64,000 nucleotides of DNA from Bizionia sp. M204 (GTDB lineage: Bacteria; Bacteroidota; Bacteroidia; Flavobacteriales; Flavobacteriaceae), in assembly GCF_023205095.1 (NCBI RefSeq), contig NZ_CP046242.1:398501-462500 (forward strand), given 5' to 3'. Positions 54,432 to 60,303 of the stretch are shown here, one piece after another (the stretch's first letter is position 1; each line of letters starts with the position of its first letter). The notes under the pieces were generated by a model. The model was not told where the DNA came from. It saw only the letters and a list, made by a program, of their open reading frames with translations, and searched no databases. Made by a program: the position numbers and the translations under genes.

Positions 54432-55001
54432 ATGAAGAAACCGAAGTTTACAACCAGTAATATTATTTTTATTATCGTGATTGCGTTGTTAATTATTCCA
54501 CAAACACGACAGCCAATTCAAATCTTTTTACAGAAAGGCTTGGCAATGATTAGTCCTTCCCAAATTAGCGCTGATAAACGCGAGATTTTAGAATCCTACG
54601 AGAATTGGAAGCTAGTGGACTCAAAAGGAAATCTATTCGATTTTAAACAAGCCGAAGGAAAAGTGGTGTTTATTAATTTCTGGGCAACCTGGTGTCCGCC
54701 ATGTATTGCTGAAATGCCAAGTATTGATAATTTATATGCCGATTATAAGGATCAGGTGGTTTTTCTATTAGTTTCAAATGAAAAATCTAAAACCATCACT
54801 GATTTCAAAAGTAAAAACGATTATAATTTCGAATTTTACCAATCGGTAACCAACACCCCAAAGCAATTTCATACTTCAAGTATTCCACAAACCTATCTTA
54901 TTGATAAATCTGGGGCTATTGTAATGGATAAATCCGGTGCTGCAAACTGGAATAGTGATTCTGTGAGACAATTATTAGATGATTTGTTAGCGTCTGAATA
55001 A
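54432..55001 (+). CDS. TlpA-like membrane-anchored thioredoxin
   Basis: 189 residues. One N-terminal membrane segment (residues 8-24, NIIFIIVIALLIIPQT) anchors the protein with the thioredoxin domain in the periplasm. The domain carries VFINFWATWCPPCIAEMPS (CPPC redox site), FLLVSNEKSK and the cis-Pro motif SSIPQTYLIDKSG. TlpA/ResA-like proteins reduce cysteines in c-type cytochromes or other periplasmic targets; the target is not known. The end overlaps the 3' end of the convergent crtY by 15 bp. Confidence 0.9.
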   Translation: MKKPKFTTSNIIFIIVIALLIIPQTRQPIQIFLQKGLAMISPSQISADKREILESYENWKLVDSKGNLFDFKQAEGKVVFINFWATWCPPCIAEMPSIDNLYADYKDQVVFLLVSNEKSKTITDFKSKNDYNFEFYQSVTNTPKQFHTSSIPQTYLIDKSGAIVMDKSGAANWNSDSVRQLLDDLLASE

Positions 55002-56141
55002 TACACGGAAAAACGCATTAATAAAACGCCATGAAAACAGGGAGCGCATAATTTTTACATCTTCAGTAAAAGATGATTCTTCATCTAAAAACCGAAACAT
55101 GGTAGGGATGGCGTTTTTCGCATAAAATTGCTCGAAAATCCAAACACCTTTCTCGTTATTTGTTTTTAAAACATTAAGGAAAATTTTATCGTAGAATTTA
55201 TATTTCTTTTTAAAGAGCTTATTTGAAGGCTGTTGCCTGTTTTTAATATTGGAAATTATAACCGCTACATTTTTTTCTGTATGCTTAAACGAATAACCCG
55301 TTGAGCCTTTTACCCAACCGCCTCCAGTACCAATTTTAGTTATATGCTTGGTATTATAGTTCCAAAAAGGAAAATCCGTCATAGGAATATTGCCCATTTC
55401 GGTTTCAACAATTTTGTACTTTTCAATTTCTAAATGACTTTCAATATAATCTTTTATAGCATCATCATAAACGGATTCTGAAACAGTTTCCGGTGTAAAA
55501 AAGGTATATTCAATAAGTGCTCGCGTTTCTGAAAAAGGTAGTACATAAACAAAACTTGTGGAATTTTGATGTTGAAACCGATAATCCATCATGGTGATAG
55601 CATTAGGATTAAAATGAGGGGTTTCGGTTTCAATAATCCAACCTTTAAAATGTTGTTGTACTAATGTAAATTTTTCTATTTCGGAGTTATAATCCTTTGG
55701 AATTCTACTATCAAAAACGTGATCTGCTGTGTACGTTTCCACCTTACCTTGTACCAAAACGTTATTCGTTTCGGTTGTAGAAATAATAGAATCGTTTATA
55801 AAATATATGTTTTCCGATTTTTGTAAAATTTCCTTCGCCCAATTATAAAAATCAATAGATCGGATGCTTTTATAGGTGTATGGATTTAAAGGCAGTGTGA
55901 GTGATAGTGAATTGGAGTAAAAACGTGCCGTTTCCCAAGATCTTTCAACTATTGCATCCCATTTGCTCATGCCAATTTCCCAAAAACTCCATGTTTTATC
56001 ATTAGAAGACTTATCAGAAGGGTCAATTAATGCAACCTTTTTATGTTTAAGTACATTATCCTCGGAGAAACCTAAAGCAAGCTGTAAACCTGCGAGACCA
56101 TGTCCAATAATGATATAATCGAAATGATTTTCGTAAGACAT
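54987..56141 (-). CDS. crtY: Lycopene beta-cyclase
   Basis: 384 residues. N-terminal FAD motif FDYIIIGHGLAGLQLALGF and SNDKTWSFWEIG, conserved DYRFQHQ and GTGGGWVKGSTGYSF fit the CrtY-type lycopene cyclase family (Bacteroidota branch). Converts lycopene to beta-carotene at the membrane. Last gene of the crt operon: crtI, crtB, crtZ, crtY. The 15-bp 3' overlap with the convergent tlpA-like gene leaves no room for a separate terminator. Confidence 0.92.
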   Translation of the reverse strand: MSYENHFDYIIIGHGLAGLQLALGFSEDNVLKHKKVALIDPSDKSSNDKTWSFWEIGMSKWDAIVERSWETARFYSNSLSLTLPLNPYTYKSIRSIDFYNWAKEILQKSENIYFINDSIISTTETNNVLVQGKVETYTADHVFDSRIPKDYNSEIEKFTLVQQHFKGWIIETETPHFNPNAITMMDYRFQHQNSTSFVYVLPFSETRALIEYTFFTPETVSESVYDDAIKDYIESHLEIEKYKIVETEMGNIPMTDFPFWNYNTKHITKIGTGGGWVKGSTGYSFKHTEKNVAVIISNIKNRQQPSNKLFKKKYKFYDKIFLNVLKTNNEKGVWIFEQFYAKNAIPTMFRFLDEESSFTEDVKIMRSLFSWRFINAFFRVLFRR

Positions 56142-56162: not shown

Positions 56163-56615
56163 TTATTTTTTGAAGTATTTAAAAGGAACAAATAGCATTC
56201 CGAAGCATTCACCATCATCTTTACCCAAATGTTTATGGTGCATTTTATGCGCACGACGCACGCCTTTGGCGTACCAATTATTGGCATTTCGTAACAATTT
56301 GAAACGTTGGTGGATAAAAATATCGTGAACAAAAAAATAAGCCAGTCCGTAGGCAAAAATTCCCAAACCTAAAGGGAGTCCCGCCCAAAAGTCCGCATAT
56401 CTCCATGTTAAAAACAGGCTAATACTAACCACGGCATAAAAAATAAAAAACAAATCATTTCGTTCAAACCAACTGTCATGCTTTTTATGGTGATGGTCTT
56501 TATGTAAACTCCATAAAATCCCATGCATAATGTATTTATGAGTAAACCAAGCCATGAATTCCATAAAGAGGAATGTGCCAATAAAAACTAATATCCACAA
56601 AATAATATCCATCAT
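56163..56615 (-). CDS. crtZ: Beta-carotene hydroxylase
   Basis: 150 residues. Four membrane stretches and the histidine clusters of the fatty-acid hydroxylase superfamily: HKYIMHG, HKDHHHK, HDIFIHQR and HKMHHKH, which bind the di-iron centre. Length fits CrtZ, which turns beta-carotene into zeaxanthin. Located between crtB (4 bp gap) and crtY (21 bp gap). The ATG at 56615 is taken; a second ATG is directly after it. Zeaxanthin is a common pigment in marine flavobacteria. Confidence 0.93.
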   Translation of the reverse strand: MMDIILWILVFIGTFLFMEFMAWFTHKYIMHGILWSLHKDHHHKKHDSWFERNDLFFIFYAVVSISLFLTWRYADFWAGLPLGLGIFAYGLAYFFVHDIFIHQRFKLLRNANNWYAKGVRRAHKMHHKHLGKDDGECFGMLFVPFKYFKK

Positions 56616-56619
56616 ATTT

Positions 56620-57459
56620 TTACAATAAATTTAGCTGATATTTTACATAACTACGCGTTAATAACTCAATTTTTTTATAATTAGCCACGCGAATTCTCGT
56701 GTTCTTGATTTGTAATGCTGGTGTTTTCTTTAATTTTTTCAAAAGCTGACTATAATATCTGTAAGCGGTAAAAACACCAAACTTGGCTTCAATAGGTAAT
56801 TCCTTAATGCCCTGAAGTCCAATTGCGAAATCGCGCTCTATTTCTTCAATTATTAAAATTTTTGAAGTCTCATCTAGTTTGGATAAATCCGTATTTGGAA
56901 AATATGTTCGACTTAAATCTTCATAATCACTCTTTAAATCTCTTAAAAAATTCACTTTTTGGAATGCAGAGCCTAAATGCATGGCCGAATTTTTAAGGTG
57001 ATTGTATTTCTCATTATCACCTTTTACAAATACTTTCAAACACATAAGTCCAACCACGTCTGCAGAACCGTAAATATAAGTATTGTATTCATCTTGGGTT
57101 AAATAAGTAGTTTTATGTAGGTCTGTACGCATACTTCGCATAAAGGCTTCAACCATATGTTTTTCAATTCCATATTTATGATAGGTTTCTTGGAAGGAAT
57201 TTAAAATGGGATTTAAACTTATTTTACGTTCTAAAGCCAAATACAAATCGCTTTCAAATTCATTAAGCAAGGTTTCTTTATCGTAATCATGGAAACTATC
57301 TACAATTTCATCCGCAAACCTGACAAAACCATAAATATTATAAATATCCTGGCGGATAGAACGGGATAACATTTTGGTTGCCAAAGAGAAAGACGTGCTA
57401 TAGGTTTTAGTAACCGTTTGACTGCACGCATGAGAAACATGGTCGAAAATTGATTTCAT
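56620..57459 (-). CDS. crtB: Phytoene synthase
   Basis: 279 residues. Head-to-head condensation of two geranylgeranyl diphosphates to phytoene. The two aspartate-rich substrate motifs are present: RFADEIVDSFHD near residue 50, and NFLRDLKSDYEDLSRTYFP near residue 170. YIYGSADVVGLMCL is also typical. Second gene of the operon, 61 bp downstream of crtI. The GGPP synthase gene crtE is not in the window. Confidence 0.95.
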   Translation of the reverse strand: MKSIFDHVSHACSQTVTKTYSTSFSLATKMLSRSIRQDIYNIYGFVRFADEIVDSFHDYDKETLLNEFESDLYLALERKISLNPILNSFQETYHKYGIEKHMVEAFMRSMRTDLHKTTYLTQDEYNTYIYGSADVVGLMCLKVFVKGDNEKYNHLKNSAMHLGSAFQKVNFLRDLKSDYEDLSRTYFPNTDLSKLDETSKILIIEEIERDFAIGLQGIKELPIEAKFGVFTAYRYYSQLLKKLKKTPALQIKNTRIRVANYKKIELLTRSYVKYQLNLL

Positions 57460-57520: not shown

Positions 57521-58987
57521 TTAGGTTGTATGATGTTTATTAATTAGCTCGGCAACCAGTTTTCCAGAGATTAATGATGGTGGTACTCCAGGTCCTGGAA
57601 CTGTTAACTGTCCTGTAAAATACAAATTATTTACCTTCTTACTTTTTAATTTTGGCCTTAAAAAGGCAGTTTGCAATAAAGTGTTGGCCATTCCATAGGC
57701 ATTTCCTTTATAAGAGTTATAATCCTTAACAAAATCGTTTACACAAAACGATTCTTTAAAAAGGATATGTTCGCGTACCTTTTGAGAGGTTAATGTTTCA
57801 AAGCGATCCATAATTTTTGAAAAATACGTCATCCGTAACTTCGTATTGTCTTTCAATCCAGGTGCTAATGGAATTAAAAAGATGCCAGCTTCTTTCCCTT
57901 CAGGAGCTGCGTGACTATCTGTTATAGAAGGAAAGCTTGCATAAAATAGAGGGTTTTCTGGCCATGCGGGTTTGTCGTAAATAGATTCGGCGTGTTTTTC
58001 AAAATCTACATCAAAAAACAGGGTGTGGTGATTAACATTTTTGATTTTCTTATCAAAACCTACATAAAACAGGAGGGATGAAGGGGCAAACGTTTTAGAA
58101 CTCCAGTAGGCTTCCGAATATTGCTTGTACTCAGGATCCAAAAGTGTTTCTGTGTGGTGATAATCGGCGCCACTTAAAACCACATCGCTCAAATAGGTTT
58201 CGCCATTTGAAATGACGCCTGAAGCGACTTTATTTGCAACGAGTATTTTCTCAATAGGTGCATTGATTTTAATAGTAACATCCAAACTTTTAGCCAATGT
58301 TTCCATGGCTAAAATAACTTGATACATGCCTTTTTTAGGGTGAAATGTTCCTAGTCCAAAATCAGCATAATTCATAAAACTATAAAACGAAGGTGTATCA
58401 CTAGGTTTGGCGCCGAGAAATAATACGGGAAACTCCAAAATGGTAACTAACCGCTCGTTTTTAAACTCTTTACGCACATCCTTTTTAATGGTGCTAAAAA
58501 ACTGTCCTATTTTTTTGAAGGTTTCGGTTGTTACCAATTCAAAAGGCGAAACTCCCGGGTTATAAACCAAATCTTTAATAGCCACATTGTAATTGTCCTG
58601 TGCCTTATTTATGAATTTTTGAAGTGTTTTTGAACTGCCTGGTTCCTCTTTCTCAAAAGCGATAGCAATTTTATCTAAAGTGTCTTCTATCGTTATATAA
58701 TCGTCCTTTCCGTAATAAACAGAATAGGCTGGATTTAGCTTTTCTAATTGATAAAAGTCAGAAGGCTTTGTATTGAAATCGGCAAAAAAGCGTTCAAATA
58801 CATCAGGCATCCAATACCAGGTTGGACCAATATCAAAGGTGAATCCATTTTTAGTTAATTGTCTTGCACGACCGCCAATAGTATTGTTCTTTTCAAATAC
58901 AGTAACATCGTGCCCAGATTTTGCTAAATAGCAAGCTGCAGCTAAAGACGAGAACCCGGAACCTATAATTGTAATTTTCTTTTTCAT
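57521..58987 (-). CDS. crtI: Phytoene desaturase (lycopene-forming type)
   Basis: 488 residues. FAD-binding N-terminus KITIIGSGFSSLAAACYLAKSGHDVTVFEKNNTIGGRARQ, then GFTFDIGPTWYWMPDVFERFF, and the C-terminal motif NLYFTGQLTVPGPGVPPSLISGKLVAELI, all typical of CrtI. It inserts the conjugated double bonds into phytoene. First gene of the crt operon. Its promoter region (58989-59024) holds a perfect inverted repeat that overlaps the -7 element, pointing to repression, probably by the upstream MerR/B12 regulator. Confidence 0.95.
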   Translation of the reverse strand: MKKKITIIGSGFSSLAAACYLAKSGHDVTVFEKNNTIGGRARQLTKNGFTFDIGPTWYWMPDVFERFFADFNTKPSDFYQLEKLNPAYSVYYGKDDYITIEDTLDKIAIAFEKEEPGSSKTLQKFINKAQDNYNVAIKDLVYNPGVSPFELVTTETFKKIGQFFSTIKKDVRKEFKNERLVTILEFPVLFLGAKPSDTPSFYSFMNYADFGLGTFHPKKGMYQVILAMETLAKSLDVTIKINAPIEKILVANKVASGVISNGETYLSDVVLSGADYHHTETLLDPEYKQYSEAYWSSKTFAPSSLLFYVGFDKKIKNVNHHTLFFDVDFEKHAESIYDKPAWPENPLFYASFPSITDSHAAPEGKEAGIFLIPLAPGLKDNTKLRMTYFSKIMDRFETLTSQKVREHILFKESFCVNDFVKDYNSYKGNAYGMANTLLQTAFLRPKLKSKKVNNLYFTGQLTVPGPGVPPSLISGKLVAELINKHHTT

Positions 58988-58988
58988 G

Positions 58989-59018
58989 TGTTTAACAAAT
59001 GTACAAAAATGTTAAACA
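58989..59018. promoter_or_regulatory. Perfect 9+9 bp inverted repeat, candidate operator at the crtI promoter
   Basis: TGTTTAACA (58989-58997) and TGTTAAACA (59010-59018) are exact reverse complements, 12 bp apart (21-bp centre-to-centre, two helical turns). The right arm overlaps the minus-strand -7 element and the left arm ends 1 bp from the crtI ATG. The likely binder is the adjacent CarH-like protein. Confidence 0.7.
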
Positions 59019-59031: not shown

Positions 59032-59928
59032 TTAAAGATATTTTTCTAAATCTGCAATAGAATGAAACACTTTAATGGATTTATGTAGCTTGCTTGTATC
59101 AATATGATCTAACATTCGTCCAAAAACCCACAATTCGTTGTTGTTTGTGAGTAATTCATTTTGAAATTCATTTAAGTAACCCGAAATATTTTCTGCCTCT
59201 GGTTTCACAGTAAAGTATGAAAGGAAAATGACGTTCTTGTAATGTTTCAAAATGTCCTTTAAGCTAACAATGGGAACGCTTGGTCCTAAATAAATAGTGT
59301 GATATTCAGATTTTGTTAATTTGTAATTGATGAAGTGAAGACCTAAATCGTGAATTTCGTTGTTAGGAAGAAAGAGAACAAAGGTTTTCTCGTTGTTTTT
59401 TGGGGATATATATTGATGCTTTTCAATATTAATCAATAATTTCTGTTTAATCAGTTCTGAAATAAAATGTTCTTGCGCAGGTGTTATGGTATTTGTTTGC
59501 CAAAGCAAGCCTATTTCACTCATTAGTGGAATGAAGACTTCCAAGAATATTTCCGAAAAACTTTTATTATTTTTTAGTGTATCATAGGTTTTTAAAAAGA
59601 GTGCTTTGTCAAAATTCAGCATGGCTAGCTTAAACATGTTGGTGGCATGATCATCGGCATAATCTTTAGCTGATAGATTACGCACCGTGTCTGCAATATC
59701 TAGCTCATTAATTTTAGCGATTTTGGAAATTTTATAACCATTGTTATAAAGAAACGTAATGTTAAGTAGCTTCTGTAAGCTTTCTAAGCTATAAAACCTA
59801 ATATTAGTTTCGGTGCGGTTTGGTTTTAGAAGGTTGTAACGTTTTTCCCAAATTCTAATGGTATGGGCTTTGACACCTGATAGGTTTTCAAGGTCCTTGA
59901 TGCTGAAGTTATTCTTAATATTGTTCAT
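59032..59928 (-). CDS. CarH-like MerR regulator with B12-binding domain (candidate light-responsive crt repressor)
   Basis: 298 residues. Residues 8-75 are a MerR winged helix: FSIKDLENLSGVKAHTIRIWEKRYNLL, then TNIRFYSLESLQKLL. Residues about 95-170 match the helical capping domain of CarH/CarA; W143 is followed after exactly nine residues by E153-H154, the W-x9-EH signature that contacts adenosylcobalamin. Residues about 180-298 are a cobalamin-binding Rossmann domain with H193 in EIHDLG, where the usual motif is DxHxxG (Asp replaced by Glu191). Known CarH tetramers repress carotenoid genes in the dark and fall apart in light. Co-directional, 44 bp upstream of crtI. Confidence 0.85.
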   Translation of the reverse strand: MNNIKNNFSIKDLENLSGVKAHTIRIWEKRYNLLKPNRTETNIRFYSLESLQKLLNITFLYNNGYKISKIAKINELDIADTVRNLSAKDYADDHATNMFKLAMLNFDKALFLKTYDTLKNNKSFSEIFLEVFIPLMSEIGLLWQTNTITPAQEHFISELIKQKLLINIEKHQYISPKNNEKTFVLFLPNNEIHDLGLHFINYKLTKSEYHTIYLGPSVPIVSLKDILKHYKNVIFLSYFTVKPEAENISGYLNEFQNELLTNNNELWVFGRMLDHIDTSKLHKSIKVFHSIADLEKYL

Positions 59929-59978: not shown

Positions 59979-60091
59979 CCAGAAAGCTATTTTTTATGCT
60001 ATGAGTTTAAGCGGTTCTTTGAGATGTAGAATGATAGATACTTGGTAGAAAATGATGAAAACGTCTAAAATTTAGGTTGACGTAATTTTAG

Positions 60092-60175
60092 TGCGCACGA
60101 GAAGACTCGAACTTCCACGGACTAATGTCCACCAACCCCTCAAGCTGGCGCGTCTACCAATTCCGCCACGTGCGC
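60092..60175 (-). tRNA. tRNA-Leu (GAG)
   Basis: 84 nt, class II tRNA with long variable arm. The minus strand begins GCGCACGTGGCGGAATTGG (acceptor GCGCACG pairs with CGTGCGC), anticodon loop CTTGAGG gives anticodon GAG, and GTTCGAGTC is the T loop. The 3' CCA is not encoded. It follows tRNA-Lys on the same strand with a strong hairpin between them. Confidence 0.93.
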
Positions 60176-60195
60176 ATTAAATAATGACTAAAAAT

Positions 60196-60228
60196 AAAAA
60201 AAGTTAAGCAGATTGCTTAACTTTTTTT
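60196..60228 (-). terminator. Rho-independent terminator after tRNA-Lys
   Basis: A 15-bp perfect stem (AAAAAAAGTTAAGCA / TGCTTAACTTTTTTT) with a 3-nt loop and a long T-run on both strands, 3 bp after the tRNA-Lys 3' end. It may end tRNA-Lys transcription before tRNA-Leu. Confidence 0.85.
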
Positions 60229-60230
60229 AG

Positions 60231-60303
60231 TGACCAGGCTGGGGCTCGAACCCAGGACCATCTCCTTAAAAGGGAGATGCTCTACCAACTGAGCTACCTA
60301 GTC
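60231..60303 (-). tRNA. tRNA-Lys (UUU)
   Basis: 73 nt. The minus strand begins GACTAGGTAGCTCAGTTGGT (acceptor GACTAGG with CCTGGTC), anticodon loop CTTTTAA gives anticodon TTT, T loop GTTCGAGC. CCA is not encoded. Confidence 0.95.

Follow-up and report, generated by a model that had tools for sequence, protein, structure and literature searches.

A CarH-type regulator and a conserved inverted repeat point to a candidate adenosylcobalamin-dependent photoprotection switch in Bizionia and other Bacteroidia

Analysis of a 64,000-nucleotide stretch of the genome of Bizionia sp. M204 (hereafter the window) identified a CarH-type adenosylcobalamin (AdoCbl) regulator of carotenoid (crt) genes, an assignment for which there is good support from its domains and residues, its predicted fold, the synteny of the locus and a conserved predicted operator. 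Our main reading, to which we give a probability of about 0.8, is that this protein is an AdoCbl-dependent dark repressor, a Bacteroidota subtype of CarH/LitR class I that commands a photoprotection regulon. We infer cobalamin binding, the sign of repression, release by light and contact with DNA from the family. The type of regulator is already known; in the open literature searched (subscription papers and preprints lay outside this scope), no account was found of the operator or the regulon, of the lack of a His ligand throughout the class, or of the partnership with an ECF sigma factor. The features on which the analysis rests are collected in Table 1.

Table 1. Features of the regulator locus and of the light-repair cluster; nucleotide positions are those of the window unless another sequence is named.
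Feature	Position	Strand	Basis or comment
CarH-like regulator gene	59032..59928	minus	real ORF, 298 aa; plus frame broken by many stops
MerR winged helix	aa 8-73 of regulator
Four-helix cobalamin cap	about aa 91-172 of regulator		Wx9EH = W143, E153, H154
Rossmann cobalamin domain	about aa 178-298 of regulator		E191xH193xxG196; part assigned by predicted fold
crtI, phytoene desaturase	57521..58987	minus	NCBIfam CrtID equivalog, 715.5 bits (cut-off 640)
crtB, squalene/phytoene synthase family	56620..57459	minus	SQS_PSY, 1.5e-47
crtZ-like beta-carotene hydroxylase	56163..56615	minus	His-box pattern and conserved place
crtY, lycopene cyclase	54987..56141	minus	PF05834, 5e-53
Predicted operator	58989..59018	.	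exact inverted repeat TGTTTAAC-N14-GTTAAACA; half-site centres 22 bp apart
Predicted crtI promoter -7 box TACATTTG	58996..59003	minus	Bacteroidota TAnnTTTG, inside operator; inferred from consensus
-7-like box TATTTTTG fused to single half-site TTGTTTAA	59945..59957	minus	upstream of regulator
Light-repair cluster	L103:5997-19499 = G000:C1:1401996-1415498		outside window; two operator copies, sites C1:1401996 and C1:1410541

The open reading frame proposed for the regulator in the first-pass annotation was borne out, on the minus strand, which that annotation had not specified, and the gene is present as one copy in its own genome. A Pfam scan of the protein returned MerR_1 (3e-15) and B12-binding_2 (8e-12) and no match to PF02310. 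The closest sequence of known structure was CarH of Thermus thermophilus (TtCarH; 5.6e-13 to 6.7e-13), whose structures were matched by the family profile at 7e-16 to 9e-16. Among family models, the best match was the NCBIfam CarH equivalog NF052513, at 71.5 bits and so below its 400-bit cut-off. In the AlphaFold model, which was built with 46 homologues and has a mean pLDDT of 88.8, the five-strand Rossmann domain missed by PF02310 is complete. When this model was compared with solved structures, TtCarH ranked first (Z 17.5 at full length, with domain shifts; for the cobalamin part, Z about 16.8 and rmsd 2.6-2.8 Å over about 195 residues), so that TtCarH, or LitR class I (PDB 5C8D, 5C8E, 5C8F and 3WHP), is the best PDB match in both sequence and fold. 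CtMerR of Chloracidobacterium thermophilum (Z 17.3) and the photocobilins (Z 16.6) also scored highly, with other cobalamin proteins at lower Z than the CarH group. By its modelled fold the protein is related to cobalamin domains and closest to the CarH group, which by itself is no proof of cobalamin binding.

Residues of the cobalamin site were counted in 90 Flavobacteriaceae genomes, representing 89 genera, and in a wider set of 40 loci from elsewhere in the class Bacteroidia. The MerR domain and the four cobalamin-site residues named in the first-pass annotation (W143, E153, H154 and H193) are all present where it had placed them, and the four residues align with W131, E141, H142 and H177 of TtCarH. 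W143, E153 and H193 are found in 90/90 Flavobacteriaceae homologues and H154 in 81/90; G140 and G215 are invariant too across these 90. All four site residues are kept in each of the 40 wider loci. The regulator thereby carries Wx9EH, the adenosyl-contact motif of CarH/LitR class I, as well as the lower axial ligand motif D/ExHx2G in the form E191-I-H193-D-L-G196, whose Glu and His occur in 90/90 and whose Gly occurs in 88/90. His154 is replaced by Arg, Gln or Ser in 9/90 loci (L067, L072, L073, L076, L078, L080, L084, L085 and L090), with W143, E153 and H193 kept.

It had been proposed that Glu in place of the Asp of DxHxxG might tune the response to light or cofactor. The Glu is indeed there, but it is not peculiar to this protein, being found in 90/90 homologues and in Thermus CarH (ERHEIG); because the latter carries Glu at the same place, it cannot be a tuning feature, and the proposal was ruled out. 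The GG of the cobalamin-tail loop, on the other hand, was not found as such: G270 is present in 89/90, but R, K, Y, H, Q or N predominate at position 271, and the second Gly is lost family-wide in Flavobacteriaceae. The real differences from Thermus CarH are Gln144 for His132 and this lost Gly rather than the Glu. A further difference lies in the motifs by which SignatureFinder defines a light-responsive cobalamin domain (GxxW, EH, GxxH and GxxxP). GLLW, EH and GPSVP are present in the regulator, whereas the place of GxxH is taken by NEIH, an NxxH; in the wider Bacteroidia loci Gly is the commonest residue at the first position of this motif (21/40).

The Trp of Thermus CarH is followed by His132, which on illumination takes over as the upper ligand of cobalt. 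Gln144 stands at this place in the regulator, and the position is occupied by Gln in 87/90 and His in 3/90 of the Flavobacteriaceae sample, and by Gln in 22, Leu in 7, Ser in 5 and His in 1 of the 40 wider loci. A His after the Trp is common in CarH/LitR class I but not universal. Since Gln144 replaces His132, the bis-His end state of Thermus is ruled out for the regulator. The replacement might also mean a weak or different light switch, because TtCarH H132A stays mostly tetrameric in light, although this variant was first reported to disassemble and the reports conflict (PMC10442372). Absence of the His nevertheless does not exclude a light switch, since CtMerR, with Arg at the His132 place, goes from tetramer to monomer in light; SasPcob has Gln there (PMC11796333).

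The scarcity of His at position 144 in both samples could be taken as a sign that photoswitching was lost, leaving a cobalamin-binding protein that serves as a sensor of corrinoid or redox status, or that needs a partner in the cobalamin-independent manner of CarA. Such a loss would fit the impaired light-driven disassembly of TtCarH H132A (PMC10442372), the variation of H154 in 9/90 homologues and the retention of the regulator by genome G064 without detected AdoCbl enzymes. We regard this account as unlikely, in that Trp143, the residue stacked on the adenosyl group and absent from CarA, is invariant, as are Glu153 and His193; CtMerR responds to light without the His (PMC11796333); and the operator described below lies before photolyase, cryptochrome and carotenoid genes, a light regulon. 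Natural absence of the His132 equivalent throughout the class would make the need of bis-His ligation for the CarH light response testable in natural proteins.

The regulator stop codon is separated by 44 nt from the start of crtI on the same strand. The crtI protein scores over the cut-off of the bifunctional phytoene/3,4-desaturase model, and the crtZ-like protein has no Pfam or NCBIfam match; zeaxanthin would be the product of the pathway. A regulator homologue was matched in 164 of the 199 family genomes sampled. crtI follows it directly in 87/90 Flavobacteriaceae loci, and in 79/80 named loci (Algibacter, Winogradskyella, Flavobacterium, Maribacter, Muricauda and others). The earlier view that the regulator gene heads a crtI-crtB-crtZ-crtY operon held for its position. 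It is not simply the head of one operon, however, because in genomes with a long regulator-crtI gap (35 nt or more), that of Bizionia included, crtI has a probable promoter of its own, with an operator between the two genes.

This predicted operator is the only match to the repeat in the window, where 0.14 would be expected at up to two mismatches, and each half-site contains TnnACA, the core of known CarH sites (PMC9304148). Counting repeats with at most two mismatches, it was found in 47/54 long-gap crtI promoters (45 with a spacer of 14), in 0/33 short-gap ones and in 0/1740 shuffled regions. For the named loci, a set that partly overlaps the 90-locus sample, the figures were 31/37 long-gap against 0/42 short-gap. 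The aligned consensus reads TTTTGTTTAAcTTTTtt.TAtATTTGTTAAACAA, with the ATG no more than a few bases further on, and includes a TAnnTTTG box. In the window the operator ends one base before the crtI ATG, so that the crtI mRNA is probably near-leaderless. Since the operator spans the -7 box, a protein bound there would cover the promoter.

The position of the repeat bears on whether the regulator might instead activate transcription in the MerR manner, by remodelling the promoter in light. Its MerR fold would suit such a role, as would the single half-site fused to a -7-like box ahead of its own gene. At crtI, however, the -7 box itself lies within the repeat, which reaches almost to the start codon and so occupies a blocking position, and the characterised CarH proteins are repressors (PMC9304148, PMC11796333), which makes activation quite unlikely and leaves dark repression as the preferred mode. 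At the half-site before the regulator, TTTAA is found at the corresponding place relative to TTGTTTA in 59 of the 67 homologues that have this anchor, and autoregulation through this half-site is possible. Three tandem TnnACA elements in the window operator, spaced by 10 and 11 bp, were also considered as a CarH direct-repeat operator and rejected: the middle repeat, TGTACA, is not conserved (consensus TAtATT), so the triple is probably a coincidence.

Among the 33 short-gap genomes (e.g. Maribacter, Winogradskyella and Muricauda), no conserved operator was found; the repeat lies before the regulator in 5/33, and direct TTTAAC pairs about 46-47 bp apart occur in a minority only. With the operator absent at their crtI, control of this gene must differ in these genomes.

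Copies of the repeat were then counted across the 3.36-Mb genome against a third-order Markov model. Two exact copies and one with a single mismatch were found, against about 0 and 0.33 expected, whereas copies with two mismatches (4 observed, 5.6 expected) are not evidence on their own. Besides crtI, the exact and one-mismatch copies lie only before two neighbouring operons of a photolyase/cryptochrome/FolE cluster. The first operon encodes a TetR-type protein, an ABC1 kinase-like protein, a flavin reductase-like protein, an NmrA/DUF2867 protein, a photolyase/cryptochrome, a DPRP photolyase-related protein and a photolyase. The second comprises a 149-aa ORF, DUF2805, GTP cyclohydrolase I, a short-chain dehydrogenase, glutathione peroxidase, TspO, a polyketide-cyclase-like protein and a photolyase. 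Within this light-repair cluster, whose arrangement is kept across genera, are at least four photolyase/cryptochrome-family genes together with those for FolE, TspO, glutathione peroxidase and the TetR-type regulator. The 149-aa ORF (L103:14582-15031) belongs to a conserved type of protein of about 145 aa that has no Pfam match and stands first in the second operon in many genera.

In twelve further genomes, 42 operator sites were found against 6 control matches, located at crtI, at both light-repair operons and before fasciclin-domain genes beside a conserved mnmA-like neighbour. In the Bizionia genome, a two-mismatch copy lies 20 nt ahead of the fasciclin gene start; by itself this copy is at chance level, and it is the only one of the two-mismatch copies backed by other genera. 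Fasciclin-domain lipoprotein-like genes with the operator were noted at L104:3648-5127, L127, L131, L134, L135, L138, L144, L148 and L149, mostly beside the mnmA-like gene; the encoded protein is a candidate that might bind carotenoid, as AstaP, a fasciclin protein of algae, does (PMC10147662). The likely targets of the regulator accordingly reach well past zeaxanthin. Recurrence of a conserved site before genes for repair of sunlight damage suggests that the switch probably controls the whole sunlight-protection programme, and the same operator before photolyase/cryptochrome operons lends the light prediction independent support. Comparable targets (phrB, folE and cryB) are controlled by the Class II LitRs of Pseudomonas (PMC9758184).

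In several genera a palindromic site immediately precedes tetR, which raises the question of whether the inverted repeat belongs instead to the TetR-family protein that heads the photolyase operon. Ownership by TetR is very improbable and was ruled out on phyletic grounds. TetR is absent from twelve genomes that have the repeat at crtI; in turn, of eight genomes that carry TetR and lack a close CarH orthologue, seven are without the site, and in the eighth (G025) crtI adjoins a diverged CarH-like gene. The repeat also occurs beside the CarH-like gene in other Bacteroidia families. Across the 27 genomes without a close CarH orthologue there was no excess of sites (7 against 6 in the control), and three of the seven are in G025, at its TetR, 149-aa and DUF2805 genes. 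The pattern argues that the repeat follows the CarH-like protein, a phyletic argument rather than a footprint.

In those other Bacteroidia families, 13/40 loci have the repeat shortly after the CarH-like gene, compared with 0/2000 shuffles, and it often precedes an ECF sigma gene that is followed by crt genes or a photolyase. At L275, L279, L277, L288, L290 and others in L272-L311, this ECF sigma gene, which encodes about 167 aa, separates the CarH-like gene from the crt or photolyase genes.

As to cofactor supply, the Bizionia genome encodes a PduO-type adenosyltransferase and AdoCbl-type mutases of 710 and 1144 aa. An adenosyltransferase is found in 184 of the 199 sampled genomes, so its presence does not discriminate. 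In G064 (L068; 1.7 Mb, 99% complete), the regulator and crt genes are kept, and a search for both adenosyltransferase families and the mutase returned none; this organism may import the coenzyme, or its regulator may work otherwise.

Under the dark-repressor reading, the regulator would bind AdoCbl in the dark, with His193 as the lower cobalt ligand and Trp143 and Glu153 against the adenosyl group. The AdoCbl-bound protein would oligomerise and sit on the inverted repeat, covering the -7 box of the crtI promoter and the promoters of the photolyase/cryptochrome/FolE cluster and of the fasciclin-domain gene. Green to near-UV light would break the Co-C bond and weaken the oligomer, allowing the photoprotection genes to be transcribed. 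A light state that is water-ligated or Glu-assisted, as reported for CtMerR, would be more likely than a bis-His cobalamin.

Abundant and frequently pigmented, flavobacteria for the most part rely on an external source of B12. If the reading is true, tolerance of UV and light in these bacteria would be linked to the availability of B12, and one short operator would serve as a ready readout of the light regulon across hundreds of genomes. A broader proposition, on which we are evenly divided, is that the Bacteroidia hold a CarH-like subtype that has kept the AdoCbl site and given up the bis-His ligand, and that uses one inverted-repeat operator for a whole photoprotection regulon (carotenoids, several photolyases/cryptochromes, pterin synthesis, the fasciclin protein and, in many families, an ECF sigma), such that in a major marine group the degree of sunlight tolerance would be determined by the supply of B12.

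Set beside known systems, the regulator shares with Thermus CarH the MerR domain, the four-helix cap with Wx9EH, the Rossmann domain with ExHxxG and regulation of carotenoid genes. It differs in its operator, an inverted repeat, where the known CarH sites of T. thermophilus and B. megaterium are tandem 11-bp direct repeats. Judged by domains and the Wx9EH and ExHxxG motifs, and allowing for the missing GG and direct-repeat operator, the protein is best classed as a Bacteroidota variant of class I LitR/CarH. CtMerR (PDB 8JBS and 8JBT) is likewise a MerR cobalamin photoreceptor without the His132 equivalent (PMC11796333), but has Arg rather than Gln there and is about 14% identical over the aligned region. 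CarA and CarH of Myxococcus xanthus are also MerR-cobalamin regulators of carotenogenesis; the CarA site has been proposed to contain inverted repeats, as the predicted operator does, and the CarA pathway also involves an ECF sigma, CarQ (PMC9304148). CarA itself is without the Trp of Wx9EH, in contrast to the regulator. PplR/PmlR, class II LitRs of Pseudomonas, have a similar light regulon of photolyase, FolE, cryptochrome and short-chain dehydrogenase (PMC9758184); proteins of that class have the four-helix part only and work with a LOV protein, whereas the regulator model has a full Rossmann domain.

Within the Bacteroidota, a 2020 paper recorded for Flavobacteriaceae strain GF1 a MerR protein that carries a B12-binding domain and is encoded ahead of zeaxanthin genes, in passages that give no operator, regulon or residue analysis (PMC6974559). 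Gene and synteny are the same as here, the GF1 genome being locus L239, at 57% identity. Nothing decisive was found in the open literature on flavobacterial light transcriptomes or regulator studies; a light-induced carotenoid phenotype has been described in Chryseobacterium lacus, with no regulator identified there (PMC7064467). Upstream of the Bizionia regulator, the window carries tRNA-Leu(gag) and tRNA-Lys(ttt) genes at 60091-60303, and several other genera likewise show a tRNA-like end ahead of the regulator gene.
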